Shown here: positions 21,918-30,451 of the stretch, piece after piece
Numbering within the stretch: position 1 is the stretch's first letter
How the letters are laid out: every line of letters begins with the position of its first letter
Source of the DNA: Pedobacter nyackensis
GTDB lineage: Bacteria; Bacteroidota; Bacteroidia; Sphingobacteriales; Sphingobacteriaceae
Assembly (NCBI RefSeq): GCF_900176505.1
Contig: NZ_FWYB01000008.1
Span: 186,001-250,000, forward strand
DNA: 64,000 nt
Direction: 5' to 3'
The notes under the pieces: generated by a model
The model's input: only the letters and a program-made list of their open reading frames with translations
Database searches by the model: none
Told to the model about the DNA's origin: nothing
Made by a program: the position numbers and the translations under genes

Positions 21918-22880
21918 TCAACCTGCTGCTACCTGCAAGGCCTTTTCGACTGCAATAGCTTTAGGAAACAGCACATTATTTTCTAGGTGTACATGTCTGT
22001 GTAAATCATTCTCATATTCATCAAGCTTTTTGTAGAGTATGGTGTAGGAGTTACAGGCATCTGGTGGTAAAGTGAAATTATTGGTGATTTCGCGTATGGT
22101 CTGCAATGCTTCACCGGCCTGCTCATGCTCAGATTCCATCATCTGAATGGGATTGGATACTTTTCCAAAAGCGCTAGTGGGCACTGAACCTCCCTGGTGC
22201 TGAACCGCCACTAATTCCTTGATAAAGGGGAATAAGATTCTCTCCTCTTTGCTCATGTGTAACATTAAATCTGCCCCCACCTGACAAAAGATCTGGGCAA
22301 TCCTGAGGGTTTCGGGATGCTGACCACCGTGTACTTTCGCTACTTTATTTGCGAGTTCCATAATAAATGGGGTATTCTCTTTTACGTATTGATGATGTGT
22401 ATTGATAATGAAATCTGTCAAAAATCCAATGTCCCATCTTAAGTAATCATTTTCAGTTGTTGACGTCTCACCGGTAAGCAATGCTAAGGCTCCTTGCACT
22501 TCCAACGCATCAATTCCCTTTTTTTCGCAAACCTCCGAAACAGTCTTTTTCCCACCACAGCAAAAATCTATACCGAAGCGCTTAAACACCTGGGCTTTTC
22601 TATAGTCTTTAGTTACAATTTCACCTATAGTTTCTTCATTAGCCTGAGCTTCCTTTTTTGCAATTTTCACTTTCCAAATTTCAGGGCCATTTTCCAAATA
22701 ATCCCAGGAAAATGTTTGTCCTCGCTCTGCCAGAAACTGATAATACAAGGGCTTGGGGTCATGATCATTTTCAATTACAAAGGCCTGTCCGGGGTTTAGA
22801 CCGTCATACATTTCAAAAATTTTTGGATGTTTTAAGCGTGGCTCCAAAGCCGTCACATTTAATGTGTTCATCGTTTCCAT
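21918..22880 (-). CDS. ric: RIC/ScdA-type di-iron iron-sulfur cluster repair protein with N-terminal DUF2249
   Basis: 320 residues: DUF2249 at about 8-75 (LKHPKIFEMYDGLNPGQAF, NDHDPKPLYYQF), ScdA_N at about 83-140 with GIDFCCGG (Cys 107-108), and a hemerythrin-like domain from 148 on. The di-iron ligands are all visible: NTHHQY, VHGGQHPE, HMSKEERILFP, ESEHEQAG and HRHVHLENNVLFP. RIC proteins repair iron-sulfur centres damaged by NO or peroxide. It has its own promoter with a Crp/Fnr-type box. A diverged, ligand-less copy lies at 26178. Confidence 0.93.
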   Translation of the reverse strand: METMNTLNVTALEPRLKHPKIFEMYDGLNPGQAFVIENDHDPKPLYYQFLAERGQTFSWDYLENGPEIWKVKIAKKEAQANEETIGEIVTKDYRKAQVFKRFGIDFCCGGKKTVSEVCEKKGIDALEVQGALALLTGETSTTENDYLRWDIGFLTDFIINTHHQYVKENTPFIMELANKVAKVHGGQHPETLRIAQIFCQVGADLMLHMSKEERILFPFIKELVAVQHQGGSVPTSAFGKVSNPIQMMESEHEQAGEALQTIREITNNFTLPPDACNSYTILYKKLDEYENDLHRHVHLENNVLFPKAIAVEKALQVAAG

Positions 22881-22980: not shown

Positions 22981-23280
22981 TCAAAGGCCCCGAAGCTTTC
23001 TTAATCCCGCTTCTGGTATAGTCCTGTAGTTCCATGCTGGCTCCCAAACCAAAGATACCTCTGCCTGATAATCTGGAAAAGTACGTATGATGCTATTTTT
23101 AACAGCCGATAAAATACTCTCACTCATAGGACAATTTCTGGAGGACAAGGTCATTTCGATCAGGATACACTTATTTATATCATCTACCTTGACATGATAT
23201 ACCATGCCCAGATCAACAATATTAACGTGTAGTTCGGGATCGATAACGGTTTTTAAAGCATCTACAACCGTAACTTTCAT
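22981..23280 (-). CDS. DUF59/MIP18-family iron-sulfur assembly protein
   Basis: About 99 residues from Met 23280, which begins right at the domain (MKVTVVDALKTVIDPELHVNIVDLGMVY); Met 23316 is a possible alternative that overlaps the upstream gene. The DPE and NIVDLGMVY signatures and the SSRNCPMSESI segment with its Cys are typical of MIP18/PaaD/SufT-like proteins used in iron-sulfur cluster assembly. It is the last gene of the nor operon, consistent with cluster repair under NO stress. Confidence 0.82.
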   Translation of the reverse strand: MKVTVVDALKTVIDPELHVNIVDLGMVYHVKVDDINKCILIEMTLSSRNCPMSESILSAVKNSIIRTFPDYQAEVSLVWEPAWNYRTIPEAGLRKLRGL

Positions 23281-23302
23281 GGCAAATAAAAATTCAGGAA
23301 TA

Positions 23303-24595
23303 TCAAATGTGATCATAATCTTCTGTCTTTGTTTGATGTAAAAGAAGGACAATAAGGTGTGCAAAATAACTTAATGCAGTTACCGCCAAACTGCCTGCGG
23401 CAATGCTTTTAAGCGTAAAAGAACTAAAAAGGAAACCAGAAATAAATGCCAGCAGGAAAAGTAAAAAAGCAAAAGATTGTGCATAAAGTAAGCCTTTGTT
23501 GATCAGATCTGATGGAAGGGGTGTTTTAACCTTTCCCGTAAGCTGTTCATAATGCTTTACCCATACGATATATGGCAGGGTTTTAAAAGTCTGACCTAAT
23601 ATCAGCAGACTGATCCAGCCCATAAAGATCAGGCTTCCATACAGTGTGGACAGGTTTACCGCAAACGCATCATTTTTTAAATGATAATACAATATAAACG
23701 GCAAAATCAATATCCCTGCAGCAAGAAAAACAAACGAAAACAAACTCTTTACCATGGGCAAATCAACATCCTTGCGAATGCGGGACTGAAAACATCTGAA
23801 AATATAAAATAGGTAAAAGCAGACTCCGGTAACGCCCAATAACCAAACAAAATAGGTATAACCATTAATCCCATGAAGGTAGCCGTCCAGTAAAAACAAT
23901 AACAATGCTGCATTAATGCAATAATAGGCGAATAAGAGTAAATGTTTTTTTTCATATTCAGAGATTAGGAACATAGGTAGCAATTTAGCACTGACACCGA
24001 TAATAAGCATTAGAAACCAGCCTGCAATTCCCATATGGGCATGTAATCTCAGAAAATGTAAATGGTCTTTTTGCAGGAATGAATATTGGAAATTAAAAAC
24101 CATCAACAGACCAAGCAGTGCCGTTAAAGTAAGCCATAAACAGGCTGTAATTATAAATTCCTGGAAAATGGATTCCTGTTTTTTATACTTAACCGTAAAA
24201 AAAACATTCAGATTAAACAATATAATTGCAGTAAACACCAGCACTCCGGCAATTTGCATATACATCCCTGGATCGAAAATCCAGAAACAATAAACGAGCA
24301 GTACAATTCCAGGTACAAAGAAAGTAATACTAGCCCAGGCCAGTTTGATACTATATAATTTCGTTTCCAGGATAACGGGAAGTAGCTGATACAAAGCGCC
24401 AAAAATAATCATACTACCCCATCCTAAAGCAGCCGTATGGGTCATAGCCAGGATTTTAGGCTGAAAGTAATGTCCGGACAAGGCTTCAAGGGAAAACAAG
24501 AGCATTCCGGCCAGTACCAAAAAAAACAGACCTGCAATTAAATAATGGGTTGATACAATTTTATAAAGCGGGTTATTGTGGCCAATAGTGCTCAT
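23303..24595 (-). CDS. Polytopic heme-copper-oxidase-like membrane protein
   Basis: 430 residues with about 12 transmembrane segments. Histidine-rich helices THTAALGWGSMIIFGALYQLLP and HFLRLHAHMGIAGWFLML resemble the heme-ligating helices of heme-copper oxidase subunit I and NnrS-like proteins, but the CuB and catalytic set is incomplete. It overlaps the DUF1858/DUF2249 gene by 4 nt, so both are translated together in the nor operon. A heme-binding role in NO handling is likely but inferred. Confidence 0.7.
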   Translation of the reverse strand: MSTIGHNNPLYKIVSTHYLIAGLFFLVLAGMLLFSLEALSGHYFQPKILAMTHTAALGWGSMIIFGALYQLLPVILETKLYSIKLAWASITFFVPGIVLLVYCFWIFDPGMYMQIAGVLVFTAIILFNLNVFFTVKYKKQESIFQEFIITACLWLTLTALLGLLMVFNFQYSFLQKDHLHFLRLHAHMGIAGWFLMLIIGVSAKLLPMFLISEYEKKHLLLFAYYCINAALLLFLLDGYLHGINGYTYFVWLLGVTGVCFYLFYIFRCFQSRIRKDVDLPMVKSLFSFVFLAAGILILPFILYYHLKNDAFAVNLSTLYGSLIFMGWISLLILGQTFKTLPYIVWVKHYEQLTGKVKTPLPSDLINKGLLYAQSFAFLLFLLAFISGFLFSSFTLKSIAAGSLAVTALSYFAHLIVLLLHQTKTEDYDHI

Positions 24596-25407
24596 GATCT
24601 ATAAATTAGCATGTCCAGTTCATCAGCTGATTTACGGTTAAGCAGGGACAGCAGCCCCCTTCTATTGAGTTCGGAAAGCAGGTATATAGGTACCTTTTTA
24701 TGGTAAATGTATAGCAACTCATCGGCATTCATCTTTTCAAGTTGTGCCAGAATCTGAATCATCGGCTGGGGCATTTCCAGCTCGCGAACGTCGATATATT
24801 TAATCTTGTGTGCAGGAAACCGGCTTAATACCTTATCAAATAGTCCTTGCTGAGCTTCGTCATGAACTTCGGCAGGTAATGCCGTTAATGAAATTTTATG
24901 CGCTGTCTTTTCAAACCAGGTAATGATTAATTTTTCACCCACAACTTCAGTGAAATGTAAAAAACCTTTTTCGGCCAGTAAATTTATTAATGGTACTGGC
25001 TCAAAGGAATTGATGATCTTGATACGTTCTCCGGGCCCAATTCGTTTAGCTAGGTTAAGAATTTCTTTGAGTGGGTCCTGATCTTTGGAAAGCAGTGGAC
25101 GAACATCCAGTTCATAGACATTTGTCTGCAGCTCAAAATCGATGGTATTTACCTTTTCAATTACCGGCTCTTTCATCGTTTCATCAATAACAAAACCAAT
25201 GGCTTTCATGCTGCTAAAGAAATCACCGGGACTACAACCGGCAATTTTACATGCCTCTGCAATAGTTACACGACGGGCCAGTAAATTACGCAAGACAGGA
25301 TTGCGCAGCTTTGAGAAATTGCGATTTATTTTTATAAGACTGTCAATTACCTTTTCCCGGTCCACATCCAATAATGCTTTTATCCGGGTGTTTAAATTGA
25401 TATTCAT
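24592..25407 (-). CDS. DUF1858 + DUF2249 domain protein
   Basis: 271 residues from Met 25407; the longer frame to 25485 would run into the upstream gene. The N-terminal DUF1858-like helical part (TIAEACKIAGCSPGDFFSSM) contains a single Cys. It is followed by two DUF2249-type modules, one with YELDVRPLLSKDQDPLKEI...FEPVPLINLL and one with IKYIDVRELEMPQPMIQIL. DUF2249 also occurs at the N-terminus of the RIC protein here. Such proteins accompany NO and denitrification genes in Bacteroidota; the biochemical role is not known. Confidence 0.75.
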   Translation of the reverse strand: MNINLNTRIKALLDVDREKVIDSLIKINRNFSKLRNPVLRNLLARRVTIAEACKIAGCSPGDFFSSMKAIGFVIDETMKEPVIEKVNTIDFELQTNVYELDVRPLLSKDQDPLKEILNLAKRIGPGERIKIINSFEPVPLINLLAEKGFLHFTEVVGEKLIITWFEKTAHKISLTALPAEVHDEAQQGLFDKVLSRFPAHKIKYIDVRELEMPQPMIQILAQLEKMNADELLYIYHKKVPIYLLSELNRRGLLSLLNRKSADELDMLIYRS

Positions 25408-25448
25408 CAGTATAAGTTTATTTTTTATGATGGTTGCTTTTGCTGTGT

Positions 25449-26129
25449 TTACCTGAAAACGACTTTCATATTGTGCTTGGGGCAAGCAATGCCTTTCAAT
25501 TGATTAACAGAGTAACCTAAATTGCCAATTGTAGGAACACCATTAAGAAAATTCTGGATATAATAAGTACCTGTATATTTCATCAAGTTCAGGTACCGGA
25601 CCATCTCTCCAAAATCTTTCTCCTTGATCAAATCGGAATGAACAGTGGTCCGCACTTCAAATTTTTGCTCCGATGCGATTAAAAAACTTAAAGTGCGTTC
25701 AAAATTCTCAAATAAATCTGAACCTGTTATCATTTCAAATTTATTGCGCATAGCCTTAAAGTCCAAAGCAATATAATCCACCAAGCCCAAAGTAACCAGA
25801 TGTTCTATCATCACTGGCCGTGATCCGTTGGTATCGAGTTTTATAAAGAAGCCCATCGCCTTTATCTCTTTTATCAGCCAAATTATTTTACTATGCATGG
25901 TACATTCACCTCCACTCAGCACCACTGCCTCCAGGATCCCTTTCCTCGAATTCAGGAATTCCAGTACTTTTTCAAAGTTGATCGATCCCTTACCCAAAAC
26001 AATATGCGGATTGTAACAGTACAGACAACGCATGTTGCAACCTGCAAGCCAAACGACACATGCCACCTTATCTGGATAATCCATTAAGGTGAAGGGCGTG
26101 ATGTTATATATTGGAGCTGGATCCCTCAT
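25449..26129 (-). CDS. NrdG-like radical SAM activating protein
   Basis: 226 residues with the radical SAM cluster motif CNMRCLYC (Cys 31, 35, 38), LSGGECTMH and a DTNGSRP segment. This pattern matches anaerobic ribonucleotide reductase activating proteins (NrdG2 type), which generate the glycyl radical on NrdD. No NrdD is present in the window, and the gene is embedded in the nor operon. It may serve a distant NrdD or activate another target. Confidence 0.8.
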   Translation of the reverse strand: MRDPAPIYNITPFTLMDYPDKVACVVWLAGCNMRCLYCYNPHIVLGKGSINFEKVLEFLNSRKGILEAVVLSGGECTMHSKIIWLIKEIKAMGFFIKLDTNGSRPVMIEHLVTLGLVDYIALDFKAMRNKFEMITGSDLFENFERTLSFLIASEQKFEVRTTVHSDLIKEKDFGEMVRYLNLMKYTGTYYIQNFLNGVPTIGNLGYSVNQLKGIACPKHNMKVVFR

Positions 26130-26177: not shown

Positions 26178-26906
26178 TTATTGATAATCCATTACCTGTT
26201 TATTTCTCAGAGCCATAACTCTGGTATATAAAATATTCTGCAAGCAAATGATTTTATATAAATCATTTTGGAGTTCAGTCAGCAAATCTTGTGATATTTT
26301 ATAGCAGCCACATGCATTCAATGGAGGAACATAGCTATTGATCAAGCCAACCACTGATAAAAAATTCTGTTTGTGAATCGAGAGATCATCTGTCATCCTT
26401 TTTATAGAATAGCCCACCGTTTCGAAAGCAGAGCCGGTAAAAAAAATATGATCTTCTTCTGTACGGATCATTTGTTTAATCGAGGAAAACAAGATCGGAG
26501 CCTGTCTTTGCAACGATAAAATCAATCGCTTCGCACAAGTATTAAAACTTGTGCGAAGATCTATAATACGCTGGTTATGGCCTTCATGAATTTCTGACAA
26601 CCTATCTAAAAATTGTTTAATGAGTGGCAGATTGTCCTTAAGGTGACTGTAACGAATGGAGATTAAATCACTTAACAACCTCAGGGGCCAGGAGCTGTAA
26701 TTACTCGAAGGAGTTCTGGTACTTGTTAAAATAGCATTGAGGTCACCCATCAAATGCAATAGGTTAATTTCATTGTCCTTGCAAACTACTGCTATTGTTT
26801 TATCGCGCTCGGTTAATAAATCTATCTCATACCCAAGGAACAGCGCTGCAGTCCTAAAGTCCATGGCAATCATATCTCCGATTGTAACTTTATAATTTAT
26901 AATCAT
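26178..26906 (-). CDS. Degenerate RIC paralogue lacking all iron ligands
   Basis: 242 residues. It aligns along its whole length with the RIC at 21918: VTIGDMIAMDFRTAALFLGYEIDL versus ETIGEIVTKDYRKAQVFKRFGIDF, LKDNLPLI versus VKENTPFI, VPPLNACGCY versus LPPDACNSY. Nearly every metal ligand is replaced: GIDFCCGG becomes EIDLLTER, NTHHQY becomes SIRYSH, HMSKEERILF becomes SLQRQAPILF, ESEHEQ becomes TDDLSI, and HRHVHLENNVLF becomes YKIICLQNILYT. The frame is intact, and the gene lies between norB and nrdG, so it is probably expressed as a non-enzymatic protein such as a partner or sensor. Confidence 0.8.
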   Translation of the reverse strand: MIINYKVTIGDMIAMDFRTAALFLGYEIDLLTERDKTIAVVCKDNEINLLHLMGDLNAILTSTRTPSSNYSSWPLRLLSDLISIRYSHLKDNLPLIKQFLDRLSEIHEGHNQRIIDLRTSFNTCAKRLILSLQRQAPILFSSIKQMIRTEEDHIFFTGSAFETVGYSIKRMTDDLSIHKQNFLSVVGLINSYVPPLNACGCYKISQDLLTELQNDLYKIICLQNILYTRVMALRNKQVMDYQ

Positions 26907-26935: not shown

Positions 26936-29170
26936 CTATCTTTTTTTTCTAAATGATATTTCAAAAACAAAATAACATAAGCCCAAAATTCCAAACCCAA
27001 ATATTGTATCACCGATTGCTCTGAGCCATTTTAGTGTAACCATTGCCGGTTGTTGCATAAGTTCGCTGGACCGAGCATACCACATTCCGTGTTCTATGCT
27101 GGCTATAGCTTGCCAGATACCTACCGGCAAAAGGCTTAAAAGTGCCATAGCTAACAATCCAATATTGGTAGCCCAGAAGATAAACTTCATCAATGTCTCG
27201 TTCCAGAGTTCATGTCTGTAAAGGCTTCTCAAAACAAAGAGCATCAATCCGATCCCAAGCATTCCATACACGCCGAACAAAGCTGTATGTCCATGCAATG
27301 GCGTTGTATTTAATCCCTGAACATAATACAATGCTATTGGAGGGTTAATGATAAAACCAAATACACCTGCTCCCAGGAAATTCCAGAAAGCGACTGCGAT
27401 CATATAATAAATTGGCCATTTATAATCCCTGATCCATTCTGTGGATTTTGAGAGTCTGTAATTGTGATAGGCTTCATAACCAATTAGCACAAGTGGAACG
27501 ATCTCCAATGCACTAAAAGTCGCACCAAATGCCATTACGCCAACCGGAGTTCCAGAAAAGTATAAATGGTGGCAGGTACCTAATATTCCACCTGACATAA
27601 AGATAATGGTCGAAAAGATTACGTTTAAGGTCGCCGTTTTAGTCTTAAGTAAGCCCAAACGCACAAAAAGAAATGCAATCACAACCGTAGCAAATACTTC
27701 AAAGAAGCCTTCCACCCATAAGTGAACTACCCACCATCGCCAGTATTCAGCGATAGCCAGGTTGGTTTGCCTTCCCCACATTAACCCCGCAGCATAAAAT
27801 AAGGCTATTGCTGTGCAGGAGATCAGAAACATAATGATCAGATTCTTCTCCTCTGTTTTTTTTCTTAGTACGGGAAGCAAAGGTCTAACCATCAATGTCA
27901 ACCATAAAAACAGACCAATCAACAAAAACACCTGCCAAAACCTACCCAGATCTACATACTCATAGCCCTGATGACCAAACCAAAAGTTATGAATCAAGTT
28001 GAGCTTTTGCATGACGCCCATCCATTGTCCCGCCATTGAGCCCAATACAATAATTAACAAGGCAACGAATAGAAAATTTACGCCAAAAACCTGGAATTTA
28101 GGATCTTTACCGGATACTGCCGGAGCAATATATAAACCGGTAGCAAGCCATGCGGTTGCGATCCAGAAAATAGCCAGCTGAGTATGCCAGGTTCTTGTTA
28201 CCGCATAAGGAAGCCACTCATCCAATGGTATTCCATAAAAACCGTTTCCTTCCACGCCATAGTGGGCAGTAATAACCCCCATAATTACTTGTAGCACGAT
28301 GAGTAAGCTGACCACCAGGAAGTATTTTTTGATTCTGAACATAGAGGGAGTCATGCCCTGTTTCAATAGCGGATCAGCTACCGGTGTTTCCAGATGTTCG
28401 CCTTCACCTGACTTCACATGGTAAAAAATCAATGCACCGATACAGAAAATGAGCAGGATGATACTAACCCCTGACCAAATTAATAAATTCGACGTGGCTA
28501 CATTTCCTACAAGTTCATCTGAGGGCCAGTTGTGGGTATAAGATATTTTGGAACCTGGCCTTTCTGTTACTGTTGCCCAAGTTGCCCAAAAGAAAAAAGC
28601 ACTCATTTTACGCATCTTTTCTGGATCCTTAATCGACATTTTAGGAATAGCATAGTCATGACGTAGTTGATCAAACTTAGGATCGTCCATAAACAATCCC
28701 TTATAGTATTCGCTTAAATATGCGATAGCAGCTATCCGGTCTTTGGACACGGTTATGGTATTGGATGCTGCGTTAAAGGTGTTTTTTCGCAGATCCTGCT
28801 GAAGTCTGATTTTTAATCCCGCCTTTTGTTCTTCAGTTAGCGCCTCAAATTTACTATTGAAATCTTTCTTCGCATAGCTATTCAAAATAAACACTGCCTC
28901 CCTATGTAGCCAATCTGCTGTCCAATCTGGTGCTACATAGGCACCATGACCCCAGATAGAGCCGACTTCCTGCCCGCCCATACTTTGCCAGATGTTCTGA
29001 CCATCTTTTATTTCTGCCTCGGTAAAAATCGTTTTTTGATCAACGGAAATAATTTCTGACGGAACAGGCGGAGCCTGTTGATAAATTTCATAACCGAAAT
29101 AGCCCAAAATGGCAAATGAAATTCCCATTACCAGTGCAAATCCGATCCAAAGTTTTCGTTCTCTATTCAT
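26936..29170 (-). CDS. norB: Quinol-dependent nitric oxide reductase (qNOR, single subunit)
   Basis: 744 residues, the length of qNOR with its N-terminal cytochrome-c-like extension that lacks a heme motif. Key helices are WWVVHLWVEGFFEVF (His and Glu of the FeB site), CHHLYFSGTP and PLHGHTALFG (heme ligands). It reduces NO to N2O at the cytoplasmic membrane using quinol. It follows azurin by 27 bases and precedes the pseudo-RIC gene by 29, forming the nor operon. The product N2O is the substrate of the neighbouring NosZ. Confidence 0.95.
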   Translation of the reverse strand: MNRERKLWIGFALVMGISFAILGYFGYEIYQQAPPVPSEIISVDQKTIFTEAEIKDGQNIWQSMGGQEVGSIWGHGAYVAPDWTADWLHREAVFILNSYAKKDFNSKFEALTEEQKAGLKIRLQQDLRKNTFNAASNTITVSKDRIAAIAYLSEYYKGLFMDDPKFDQLRHDYAIPKMSIKDPEKMRKMSAFFFWATWATVTERPGSKISYTHNWPSDELVGNVATSNLLIWSGVSIILLIFCIGALIFYHVKSGEGEHLETPVADPLLKQGMTPSMFRIKKYFLVVSLLIVLQVIMGVITAHYGVEGNGFYGIPLDEWLPYAVTRTWHTQLAIFWIATAWLATGLYIAPAVSGKDPKFQVFGVNFLFVALLIIVLGSMAGQWMGVMQKLNLIHNFWFGHQGYEYVDLGRFWQVFLLIGLFLWLTLMVRPLLPVLRKKTEEKNLIIMFLISCTAIALFYAAGLMWGRQTNLAIAEYWRWWVVHLWVEGFFEVFATVVIAFLFVRLGLLKTKTATLNVIFSTIIFMSGGILGTCHHLYFSGTPVGVMAFGATFSALEIVPLVLIGYEAYHNYRLSKSTEWIRDYKWPIYYMIAVAFWNFLGAGVFGFIINPPIALYYVQGLNTTPLHGHTALFGVYGMLGIGLMLFVLRSLYRHELWNETLMKFIFWATNIGLLAMALLSLLPVGIWQAIASIEHGMWYARSSELMQQPAMVTLKWLRAIGDTIFGFGILGLCYFVFEISFRKKR

Positions 29171-29197: not shown

Positions 29198-29728
29198 TTA
29201 TTCCGCAATCAGTTTACCTTTCATCATAGAGACATGGCCAGGAAAAGAGCAGATAAAGTCATAGGTGCCTTTTTCAATAACTGTAAAAGTGATGGTGTCC
29301 GATTCTCCGCCACCAAGAAGTTTGGTATGTGCAATAATACTGGCACTTTCTGATTTAGGAATGTAATCATTGTCCTTAGCCCCCAGTGCCTTTTGTGCGA
29401 AAGTATTTACATCGGTACCTGGCTTCAGCAAAACGAAATTATGGCCCATGGCATTTTTTTCAAGTTTACCGGTATGTTTGAGCGTCAAGGTAATCGTCTG
29501 TCCAGCGGCAACTTTAAATTCGGTTTGATTGTACTGCATCTGATCATTTCCTTCCAGGGCTAGCACATTGCTCAGTTTAGACTCATCCGGCTTTACAGGT
29601 TCAGCTTCCAGGGTTGATGTTTCGGCAGATTGTGTTGTTGTAGATTCTTTTTCCGCATTTCCTCCGCATGAAGAAAACGTAATCATAAAAGCGATGGCTA
29701 ATCCTGAGATATTTAGTAATTGTTTCAT
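29198..29728 (-). CDS. Azurin-like cupredoxin lipoprotein
   Basis: 176 residues. The lipoprotein signal ends in FSSC (Cys 21), then a Thr/Glu-rich linker and a cupredoxin domain with type 1 copper ligands GHNFV (His), FICSFPGH (Cys, His) and MMKG (Met). NAMGHNFVLLKPGTDVNTFAQ is characteristic of azurin. It is a periplasm-facing electron carrier and the first gene of the nor operon, with a perfect Crp/Fnr-type promoter. It could feed NosZ or another periplasmic acceptor. Confidence 0.9.
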   Translation of the reverse strand: MKQLLNISGLAIAFMITFSSCGGNAEKESTTTQSAETSTLEAEPVKPDESKLSNVLALEGNDQMQYNQTEFKVAAGQTITLTLKHTGKLEKNAMGHNFVLLKPGTDVNTFAQKALGAKDNDYIPKSESASIIAHTKLLGGGESDTITFTVIEKGTYDFICSFPGHVSMMKGKLIAE

Positions 29729-29854: not shown

Positions 29855-30451
29855 TTATCTGAAAACTTTGCGATTGCGGATGATCAGCTCAGCCTTCTTT
29901 TCAAGCGATTTAATAGACCGAATGACCGTTTCTACCCTTAAACCAGTGAGATCCGCAATTTGCTGTCGGGTAATCTCCACCTTATACTTCTGGTCTGCAG
30001 GCACTTTATCGATTTTCGTTTTAAAATAATCAATCAGACTTAACACCCGGTGTTCAGGTTCCTGTGAAGAAATTTCTGAAGCCATAATCGACTTATAATA
30101 AAGTCTTCTGGCAAGGTTGGTGGTCATGTTGAGGTGAATCTCTGGATTAGCCATTAACAATTCCATAAATTTATCCTTTGGTAAAAGAAAAACTTTCGAA
30201 CATACAATTGCTACTGCGCTGGCAGGATAAGCGTCTTTAAGAAAAAGCGGAGGTTCGCCAAAACTATCCCCCTCACTAAAAAGCCCCTGAACAAATTCTT
30301 TTCCCTCATCATTGAAATTATTCATCTTTACAGCCCCATTAAGGATTTGAAAGTAATACCTAGGCATATCCCCCTTATTAAATAAAACTTCCCCCTTGTC
30401 AAAACTGGCGAGCTTAGATCCGAACTGAATCAATAAATTTTCATCAATCAT
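29855..30451 (-). CDS. Crp/Fnr-family transcription regulator
   Basis: 198 residues with an N-terminal cyclic-nucleotide-type beta-barrel and a C-terminal winged helix. The recognition helix GLRVETVIRSIKSL keeps the Glu and Arg spacing of FNR (VETxxR), which reads TGA half-sites. It has no cysteine cluster, so it would not bind a 4Fe-4S cluster as FNR does; it may sense NO through another cofactor or partner. It lies 22 bases after the copper receptor gene and just upstream of the azurin promoter, and is the best candidate for binding the TGA-N6-TCA boxes here. Confidence 0.85.
   Translation of the reverse strand: MIDENLLIQFGSKLASFDKGEVLFNKGDMPRYYFQILNGAVKMNNFNDEGKEFVQGLFSEGDSFGEPPLFLKDAYPASAVAIVCSKVFLLPKDKFMELLMANPEIHLNMTTNLARRLYYKSIMASEISSQEPEHRVLSLIDYFKTKIDKVPADQKYKVEITRQQIADLTGLRVETVIRSIKSLEKKAELIIRNRKVFR

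Follow-up and report, generated by a model that had tools for sequence, protein, structure and literature searches.

What keeps a gene for a RIC homologue in place when the residues that would hold its iron are gone? The question is raised by an open reading frame in a denitrification cluster of Pedobacter nyackensis, within the window analyzed here (a stretch of 64,000 nucleotides from one contig), in which an intact RIC is encoded in the same run of genes. A sequence-only reading of this DNA had described the frame as a full-length RIC homologue without metal ligands, whose fold selection had kept. The function of RIC itself is disputed in the literature consulted (iron donor vs. nitrite reductase), and a RIC with its metal site lost, kept beside the working enzyme, amounts to a natural control that separates RIC chemistry from protein contacts. 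The frame, hereafter pseudo-RIC, and its neighbors are listed in Table 1.

Table 1. Positions in the window of the pseudo-RIC gene, its parts and the surrounding genes.
Feature	Positions	Strand	Details
Pseudo-RIC ORF	26178..26906	(-)	242 aa, ATG at 26906, stop at 26178
ScdA_N-like N-terminal part of pseudo-RIC	26721..26906	(-)	Residues 1-62; Cys pair replaced by L31, T32
Segment hand-mapped to the ScdA homodimer interface (S77, Q80, Y81)	26661..26690	(-)	Residues 73-82
R127 codon	26526..26528	(-)	Place of YtfE E125, iron-exit channel
Intact RIC	21918..22880	(-)	N-terminal DUF2249; last of the gene run
FeS_assembly_P (PaaD/SufT-like)	22981..23316	(-)	Start set at an internal ATG of the listed ORF
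430-aa protein	23303..24595	(-)	No Pfam match; weak match to an NCBIfam cbb3 oxidase model
DrpB-like protein	24592..25422	(-)	DUF1858 and two DUF2249; ATG at 25422 (listed ORF from 25485)
NrdG2-type radical SAM protein	25449..26129	(-)	Adjoins pseudo-RIC in this genome only
NorB	26936..29170	(-)	Fused cytochrome c-like domain, quinol type
Plastocyanin/azurin-like copper protein	29198..29728	(-)	
Crp/Fnr-family regulator	29855..30451	(-)	

BLASTP aligned the intact RIC with pseudo-RIC over 229 aa (26% identity, 52% positives, E 9e-33), and the RIC model TIGR03652 scored it at 76.6 bits (E 2e-21) along model positions 1-215 of 216, all three pseudo-RICs described below (76.6, 52.5, and 57.0 bits) staying under the model's cut-off of 204.7 bits. 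Pfam returned only a sub-threshold ScdA_N match for the window copy (E 0.0056) and no match to the Hemerythrin domain, and the sole solved structures related to it by sequence search were ScdA (E 6e-7 and 9e-6) and YtfE (E 2e-5 to 4e-5). In the alignment, it consists of an ScdA_N-like domain and a four-helix bundle, the hemerythrin-like make-up by which RIC homology was judged, and it lacks both the di-iron ligands and the CC pair.

Ligand positions were obtained by aligning the window RIC to YtfE and transferring them to pseudo-RIC through the alignment. In the YtfE crystal structure, the di-iron center is held by six residues, H84, H129, E133, H160, H204, and E208 (PMC9268430). The window pseudo-RIC has Y86, S131, Q135, L175, I219, and Q223 in their places, respectively, and L31 and T32 in those of C30 and C31, so that all six ligands and both ScdA_N cysteines are gone. 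H105 of YtfE is retained as H107; it lies outside the six structure ligands, yet is named among the conserved residues in section 2 of PMC9268430. An intact ligand set was found in 74 of the 92 RIC-domain rows collected (73 of 91 without the duplicate, as the window RIC was counted twice), hence the loss in pseudo-RIC is no chance effect; the other 18 rows comprised four truncated sequences, the three pseudo-RICs, and 11 partial or divergent forms. When Asp, Glu, His, and Cys were compared in the three pseudo-RICs, no conserved replacement metal site emerged, only D16, D29, C42, D80, and D207 being common to all of them. The CC motif is itself not universal among RICs, the protein of N. gonorrhoeae having no ScdA_N domain (PMC9268430, section 6).

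The description given by the sequence-only reading is thereby borne out for the full-length homologue and sharpened on one point, since the di-iron His/Glu residues, said to be replaced nearly all, are replaced in all six positions of the YtfE structure. Its end-to-end alignment with the intact RIC stands for ScdA_N and the bundle and fails for the DUF2249 N-terminus of the neighboring RIC, which has no counterpart in pseudo-RIC. The open frame that it placed inside a compact operon is indeed ATG-started and sits within a compact run of genes on one strand.

AlphaFold2 modeled pseudo-RIC with a pLDDT of 87.2 from 42 rows, and a repeat with the three pseudo-RIC rows alone, meant to remove the reliance on RIC rows, gave the same long helices (pLDDT 81.5). 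Both models had YtfE and then ScdA as their best Foldseek matches, and the YtfE/ScdA fold is thus predicted to be retained. By Z, de novo four-helix bundles outscored the RICs as matches to the model (17.6 vs. 15.4). A match to the bundle therefore has no specificity by itself, and the RIC assignment is carried by sequence.

A single-protein search of genome contigs with the window pseudo-RIC gave no relative, and a two-row alignment search gave one, Pedobacter nutrimenti DSM 27372 (NZ_QKLU01000008.1). In a set of 99 relatives, 28 of which gave a match, P. nutrimenti (G028) likewise held the only clear orthologue, which is about 50% identical to the window copy, occupies the equal operon position, aligns without gaps and is ligand-less as well (A-T, I, S, R, F, I, and Q at the CC pair, H84, H129, E133, H160, H204, and E208). 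The genus search (145 genomes, 16 with any match, with ligands read in all 21 matches) added a third, divergent pseudo-RIC in G139, which has V-T, R, G, E, N, H, and E at the same places; both cysteines and three of the six ligands are lost, and E133, H204, and E208 are retained. Pseudo-RIC was found in 3 of the 145 genus genomes, all of them Pedobacter. The loci examined in the wider sets (399 family, 400 order, and 395 class genomes) held no further copy; ligands were read there in 27 non-pseudo-RIC loci, 20 low-scoring family matches, and 31 loci, and more partial forms may exist, chiefly among mid-scoring matches. The relative, genus, family, order, and class sets overlap. This patchy presence fits one gain followed by several losses, or transfer.

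The window and P. nutrimenti genes have 242 codons each, align without a gap and encode proteins of 49% identity, with dN 0.361, dS 1.558, and dN/dS 0.232 by NG86 (0.332 by YN00). Ten other gene pairs from the same two genomes gave NG86 values of 0.03 to 0.22, two further pairs having no usable value. The pseudo-RIC value is thus the highest of the pairs compared, narrowly so (0.232 vs. 0.218 for a lipoprotein gene), and its identity is the lowest of 13 gene pairs, the other twelve ranging from 58 to 93%. As estimated from these pairs, purifying selection on pseudo-RIC is clear, and weaker than on the other genes, although barely so by NG86. Sequences simulated under neutrality to depths of 0.3 to 1.2 substitutions per site accumulated on average 7.3 to 13.1 stops, and none of 1200 runs (4 depths x 300) remained stop-free. 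A pseudogene should have a broken frame and no purifying selection, whereas the frame of pseudo-RIC is open in three genomes.

Domain by domain, ScdA_N was more similar than the bundle in pseudo-RIC, both between the window and P. nutrimenti (60% vs. 46% identity) and against the G139 copy (34% vs. 22%), whereas RIC gave 67% vs. 74% and 72% vs. 70% in the same comparisons. The better conservation of ScdA_N reaches only marginal significance (Fisher p 0.058 and 0.062; interaction z 2.03).

On selection, too, the sequence-only reading fared well. Its claim that the fold was kept without the metal site agrees with a dN/dS of 0.23, the predicted fold and the ligand-less P. nutrimenti orthologue, and the neutral decay it had set against itself left no sign in either dN/dS (0.23) or the simulations, which were never stop-free. 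Restored ligands in relatives, also named there as contrary evidence, were encountered in part: no orthologue has them all, although three (E133, H204, and E208) persist in the G139 copy. The ligand-less form which it proposed to seek in relatives' operons exists in P. nutrimenti, fully ligand-less and under purifying selection, and a pseudo-RIC occurs in G139, while the near relatives G012 and G118 hold the operon without the gene.

Common to the three pseudo-RICs, and found in none of the 89 other rows, is a one-residue deletion ahead of the H84 place; the helix carrying H84 has 20 residues in them vs. 21 in 89 of 92 rows, and the H84 register is shifted directly after residues 73-82. They also share WP at residues 73-74, where 28 of the 74 intact rows have P. 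They form one group in the 87-row tree (support 89/89) and in the 43-row tree (94/85), on long branches (3.9 and 6.9 for G139) for which the tree program warns that joins may be false. The apparent kinship of G139 with the other two rests on this long-branch grouping, the shared deletion and R127. Forcing the pseudo-RICs together with the DUF2249-fused RICs cost 15.6 log units (AU p 0.018), so that pseudo-RIC seems to descend from stand-alone RICs and not from the adjacent RIC. The p value of 0.018 is on the favorable side, as the "fused" and "alone" groups were defined with the first tree already in view; they were set by frame length and the 87-row tree, and L019 (248-aa frame) and L015 (cut at the contig start) were put in "fused" by their place in the tree. 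With these long-branch and post-hoc caveats, descent from the neighboring RIC is disfavored.

Ligands were also found to be partly lost, in open frames, in RICs of genus group g53 (L091, L100, L101, L110, L097, and L102), where C30 is replaced by S or I, H129 by N, D, or K, and in two members also H160 by G; the frames of L091 and L097 are shorter (245 and 281 aa). Like the pseudo-RICs, these proteins come from the same bacterial family, lack some ligands and have open frames, but they keep C31, H84, E133, H204, and E208, show no helix deletion and constitute a single clade (100/99) within the long DUF2249-fused RICs, away from the pseudo-RICs. Since these partial losses sit elsewhere in the tree, the comparison suggests that RIC metal sites have been lost on more than one occasion in this family. 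Five very divergent RIC homologues (L092, L093, L094, L095, and L028) lack H84 and one or both N-terminal cysteines and retain H129, E133, H160, and E208.

In the window, norB is followed on the same strand by pseudo-RIC, nrdG2, the DrpB-like gene, the gene for the 430-aa protein, the PaaD/SufT-like gene, and RIC; a Sec-dependent type nosZ lies beyond. NorB was called a quinol-type NO reductase because of the solved structures related to it and the cytochrome c-like domain fused to it. Pseudo-RIC starts 29 bp after norB (37 bp in P. nutrimenti) and ends 48 bp before the nrdG2-type gene, which adjoins it in this genome only (one of three). The DrpB-like gene adjoins pseudo-RIC in P. nutrimenti and G139 and is one gene off in the window. 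All three genomes encode an intact RIC 2.5-3.3 kb downstream, so that the work of RIC is already covered. The G139 run reads Crp, pseudo-RIC, DrpB-like, 430-aa protein, PaaD-like, and RIC, with the Crp/Fnr gene directly upstream of pseudo-RIC, and no NorB match was obtained at E 1e-10 in this genome (one contig, 99% complete). The company common to pseudo-RIC loci is hence the DrpB-like, 430-aa, and PaaD-like proteins together with RIC. Neighbors were read in 30 loci with DrpB-like genes; the run is norB-nrdG2-drpB in G012 and norB-drpB in G118, both without pseudo-RIC, which is also missing from the operon of G027.

The nos/RIC/DrpB cluster occurs twice in the window genome, and the genes preserved whole in the other copy (L060, contig C21, 108000-126000) have 91-100% protein identity to those of the first. 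A deletion there fuses the first norB codons to mid-nrdG2 sequence; neither norB nor the site of pseudo-RIC remains, and nrdG2 is broken. In three other loci (L120, L121, and L123), a small hemerythrin-type-like frame (158, 106, and 179 aa from stop to stop) was seen by eye upstream of the DrpB-like gene.

Because the iron-holding residues are lost and yet the gene is under selection, pseudo-RIC probably acts by binding other proteins and not by chemistry. Our tentative preference, a reading that we regard as possible rather than probable, is that it is a metal-free RIC paralogue retained for a non-catalytic role, that of a partner subunit, within the NO/denitrification cluster. Several observations point this way: all ligands are lost in two orthologues 50% apart that evolve at dN/dS 0.232 (dS 1.56), the three copies have no conserved replacement site, an intact RIC and a DrpB-like gene are in the same run in every case, and the fold is predicted from pseudo-RIC rows alone. 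Against it, the gene is known from few genomes and is missing from the otherwise similar operons of G012, G118, and G027, so that its role would be dispensable; its identity is the lowest and its NG86 dN/dS, narrowly, the highest of the 13 pairs, the better conservation of ScdA_N is marginal, and the G139 copy is very divergent.

The part of the protein that such a partner might use is indicated by the dimers of its relatives. ScdA of S. aureus pairs with itself through helix 5, the core of the contact being S77 and Q80 (PMC12412097), and is the one RIC with a known homodimer interface in the literature consulted; dimers of YtfE need C31 (PMC9268430, section 6), the place of which is taken by Thr in all three pseudo-RICs. 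No other 10-residue window of the pseudo-RICs is as RIC-like as residues 73-82 (sharing 0.549 vs. a mean of 0.251), and the deletion lies directly behind them. After division by RIC's own conservation they rank only 18th of 217 windows, so their preservation may be structural, and neither core residue is kept (L/W/L at the S77 place, D at that of Q80). In our reading, the contact face may have been retained and the metal face abandoned.

Pseudo-RIC would then heterodimerize with RIC through the helix face of the ScdA homodimer (residues 73-82), setting one empty bundle next to a loaded one, and the empty bundle would tune iron release by RIC, its NO/nitrite chemistry, or client access. Its ScdA_N domain, having no Cys pair, would form no Cys31-linked dimer and would serve as a docking surface instead, possibly for the DrpB-like protein. 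A dedicated regulatory subunit for NO handling, heterodimerizing with RIC, docking on the DrpB-like protein and built by the one-residue deletion at the edge of the dimer interface together with a refilled iron site, is a version of the partner-subunit reading that we consider doubtful.

Pseudo-RIC could instead serve the DrpB-like protein as an adaptor or sensor subunit, affecting the expression or maturation of denitrification enzymes and not RIC, which seems somewhat unlikely. The DrpB-like gene is next or next but one to pseudo-RIC in all three loci, and several weak similarities hint that ScdA_N and DUF1858 are related: residues 1-67 of the model align with 2k5e (Z 10.5), which we take to be a DUF1858 protein, the RIC/pseudo-RIC profile matches 2k53 weakly (E 0.001), the ScdA_N profile matches the DrpB-like N-terminus at a probability of only 38%, and the sole Pfam match of the G139 copy is DUF1858 (E 0.057). 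A DrpB-like match was, however, present in 59 of the 80 RIC-bearing genomes searched (out of 119 in the collection), and 56 of these 59 have no known pseudo-RIC, so the DrpB-like protein does not require it. Thermus DrpA/DrpB do affect nitrate reductase expression (PMC6282519), but that work concerns Thermus.

Slow erosion of an accessory gene under weak selection, now being lost from the lineage, would account for the low identity (49% vs. 58-93%, the lowest of 13 pairs), the narrowly highest NG86 dN/dS, and the absence of the gene from the G012, G118, and G027 operons as well as from the second cluster copy of the window genome. We consider it unlikely, given a frame open in three genomes without a gap at dS 1.56 and dN/dS 0.23, neutral simulations that were never stop-free, and a fold predictable from three sequences; moreover, the other operons may never have carried pseudo-RIC.

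A ligand sensor, in which the emptied bundle with R127 would bind a small anion or an NO-derived molecule and signal by conformation, is less likely still. It draws on the YtfE E125 place, which is Arg in all three pseudo-RICs and E/D in 70 of the 74 intact rows (69 of 73 once the duplicate window RIC is removed), and on the Crp/Fnr gene upstream; in YtfE, E125 controls the iron channel (PMC8117158). Several ligand places, however, are filled by unlike residues (L/A/V, Y/I/R, Q/R/E, and L/F/N), which argues against one conserved pocket, and Pfam and NCBIfam-type profile searches found no output domain in the pseudo-RICs. As a separate observation at this site, a perfect 12-bp stem with a 6-nt loop lies within the frame at 26529-26558, adjoining the R127 codon (RNA fold z -3.4); it is the sole such site in the genome at <=3 mismatches.

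A role as scaffold for NorB, which the sequence-only reading had also proposed, or as its assembly factor would fit a gene that begins 29 bp (window) or 37 bp (P. nutrimenti) after norB. It is very improbable, since G139 has pseudo-RIC but no NorB match at E 1e-10, NorB therefore being no obligate partner, and since norB occupies the site in G012 and G118 with no pseudo-RIC beside it.

For annotation, matches to the RIC model in nor operons should have their ligands checked before they are named iron-repair proteins. For the RIC family, pseudo-RIC draws attention to two parts that may be important without iron, the dimer helix and ScdA_N.

Among known systems, pseudo-RIC is closest to RIC/YtfE/ScdA (TIGR03652), with which it shares ScdA_N, the four-helix bundle and the best Foldseek matches, and from which it differs by the lost ligands and Cys pair, the one-residue deletion, and Arg in place of E125. 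Its DrpB-like neighbor has the DUF1858-DUF2249-DUF2249 make-up of Thermus thermophilus DrpB, a protein of nitrate respiration (PMC6282519), and DUF2249 proteins recur in denitrification, in Thermus as DrpA/DrpB (PMC6282519) and in haloarchaea (PMC11218638); the words ScdA and YtfE are absent from the main text of the DrpA/DrpB paper (PMC6282519). No earlier report of a bacterial metal-free RIC was found in the open-access literature, as far as this was covered. In a eukaryote, section 2 of PMC9268430 describes Trichomonas vaginalis RIC2 as a RIC paralogue without a di-iron center; in the sequence of pseudo-RIC, no such site is seen. RIC2 as described there has a signal peptide, a leucine zipper, and DNA binding (PMC9268430), whereas pseudo-RIC is bacterial, belongs to a denitrification cluster and shows no consistent basic character. 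Nucleic-acid binding in the manner of RIC2 was rejected for pseudo-RIC on this charge (pI 7.8, 5.2, and 5.8). A RIC paralogue without a di-iron center thus has a precedent in T. vaginalis RIC2, and pseudo-RIC would be a bacterial variant of this kind of protein.
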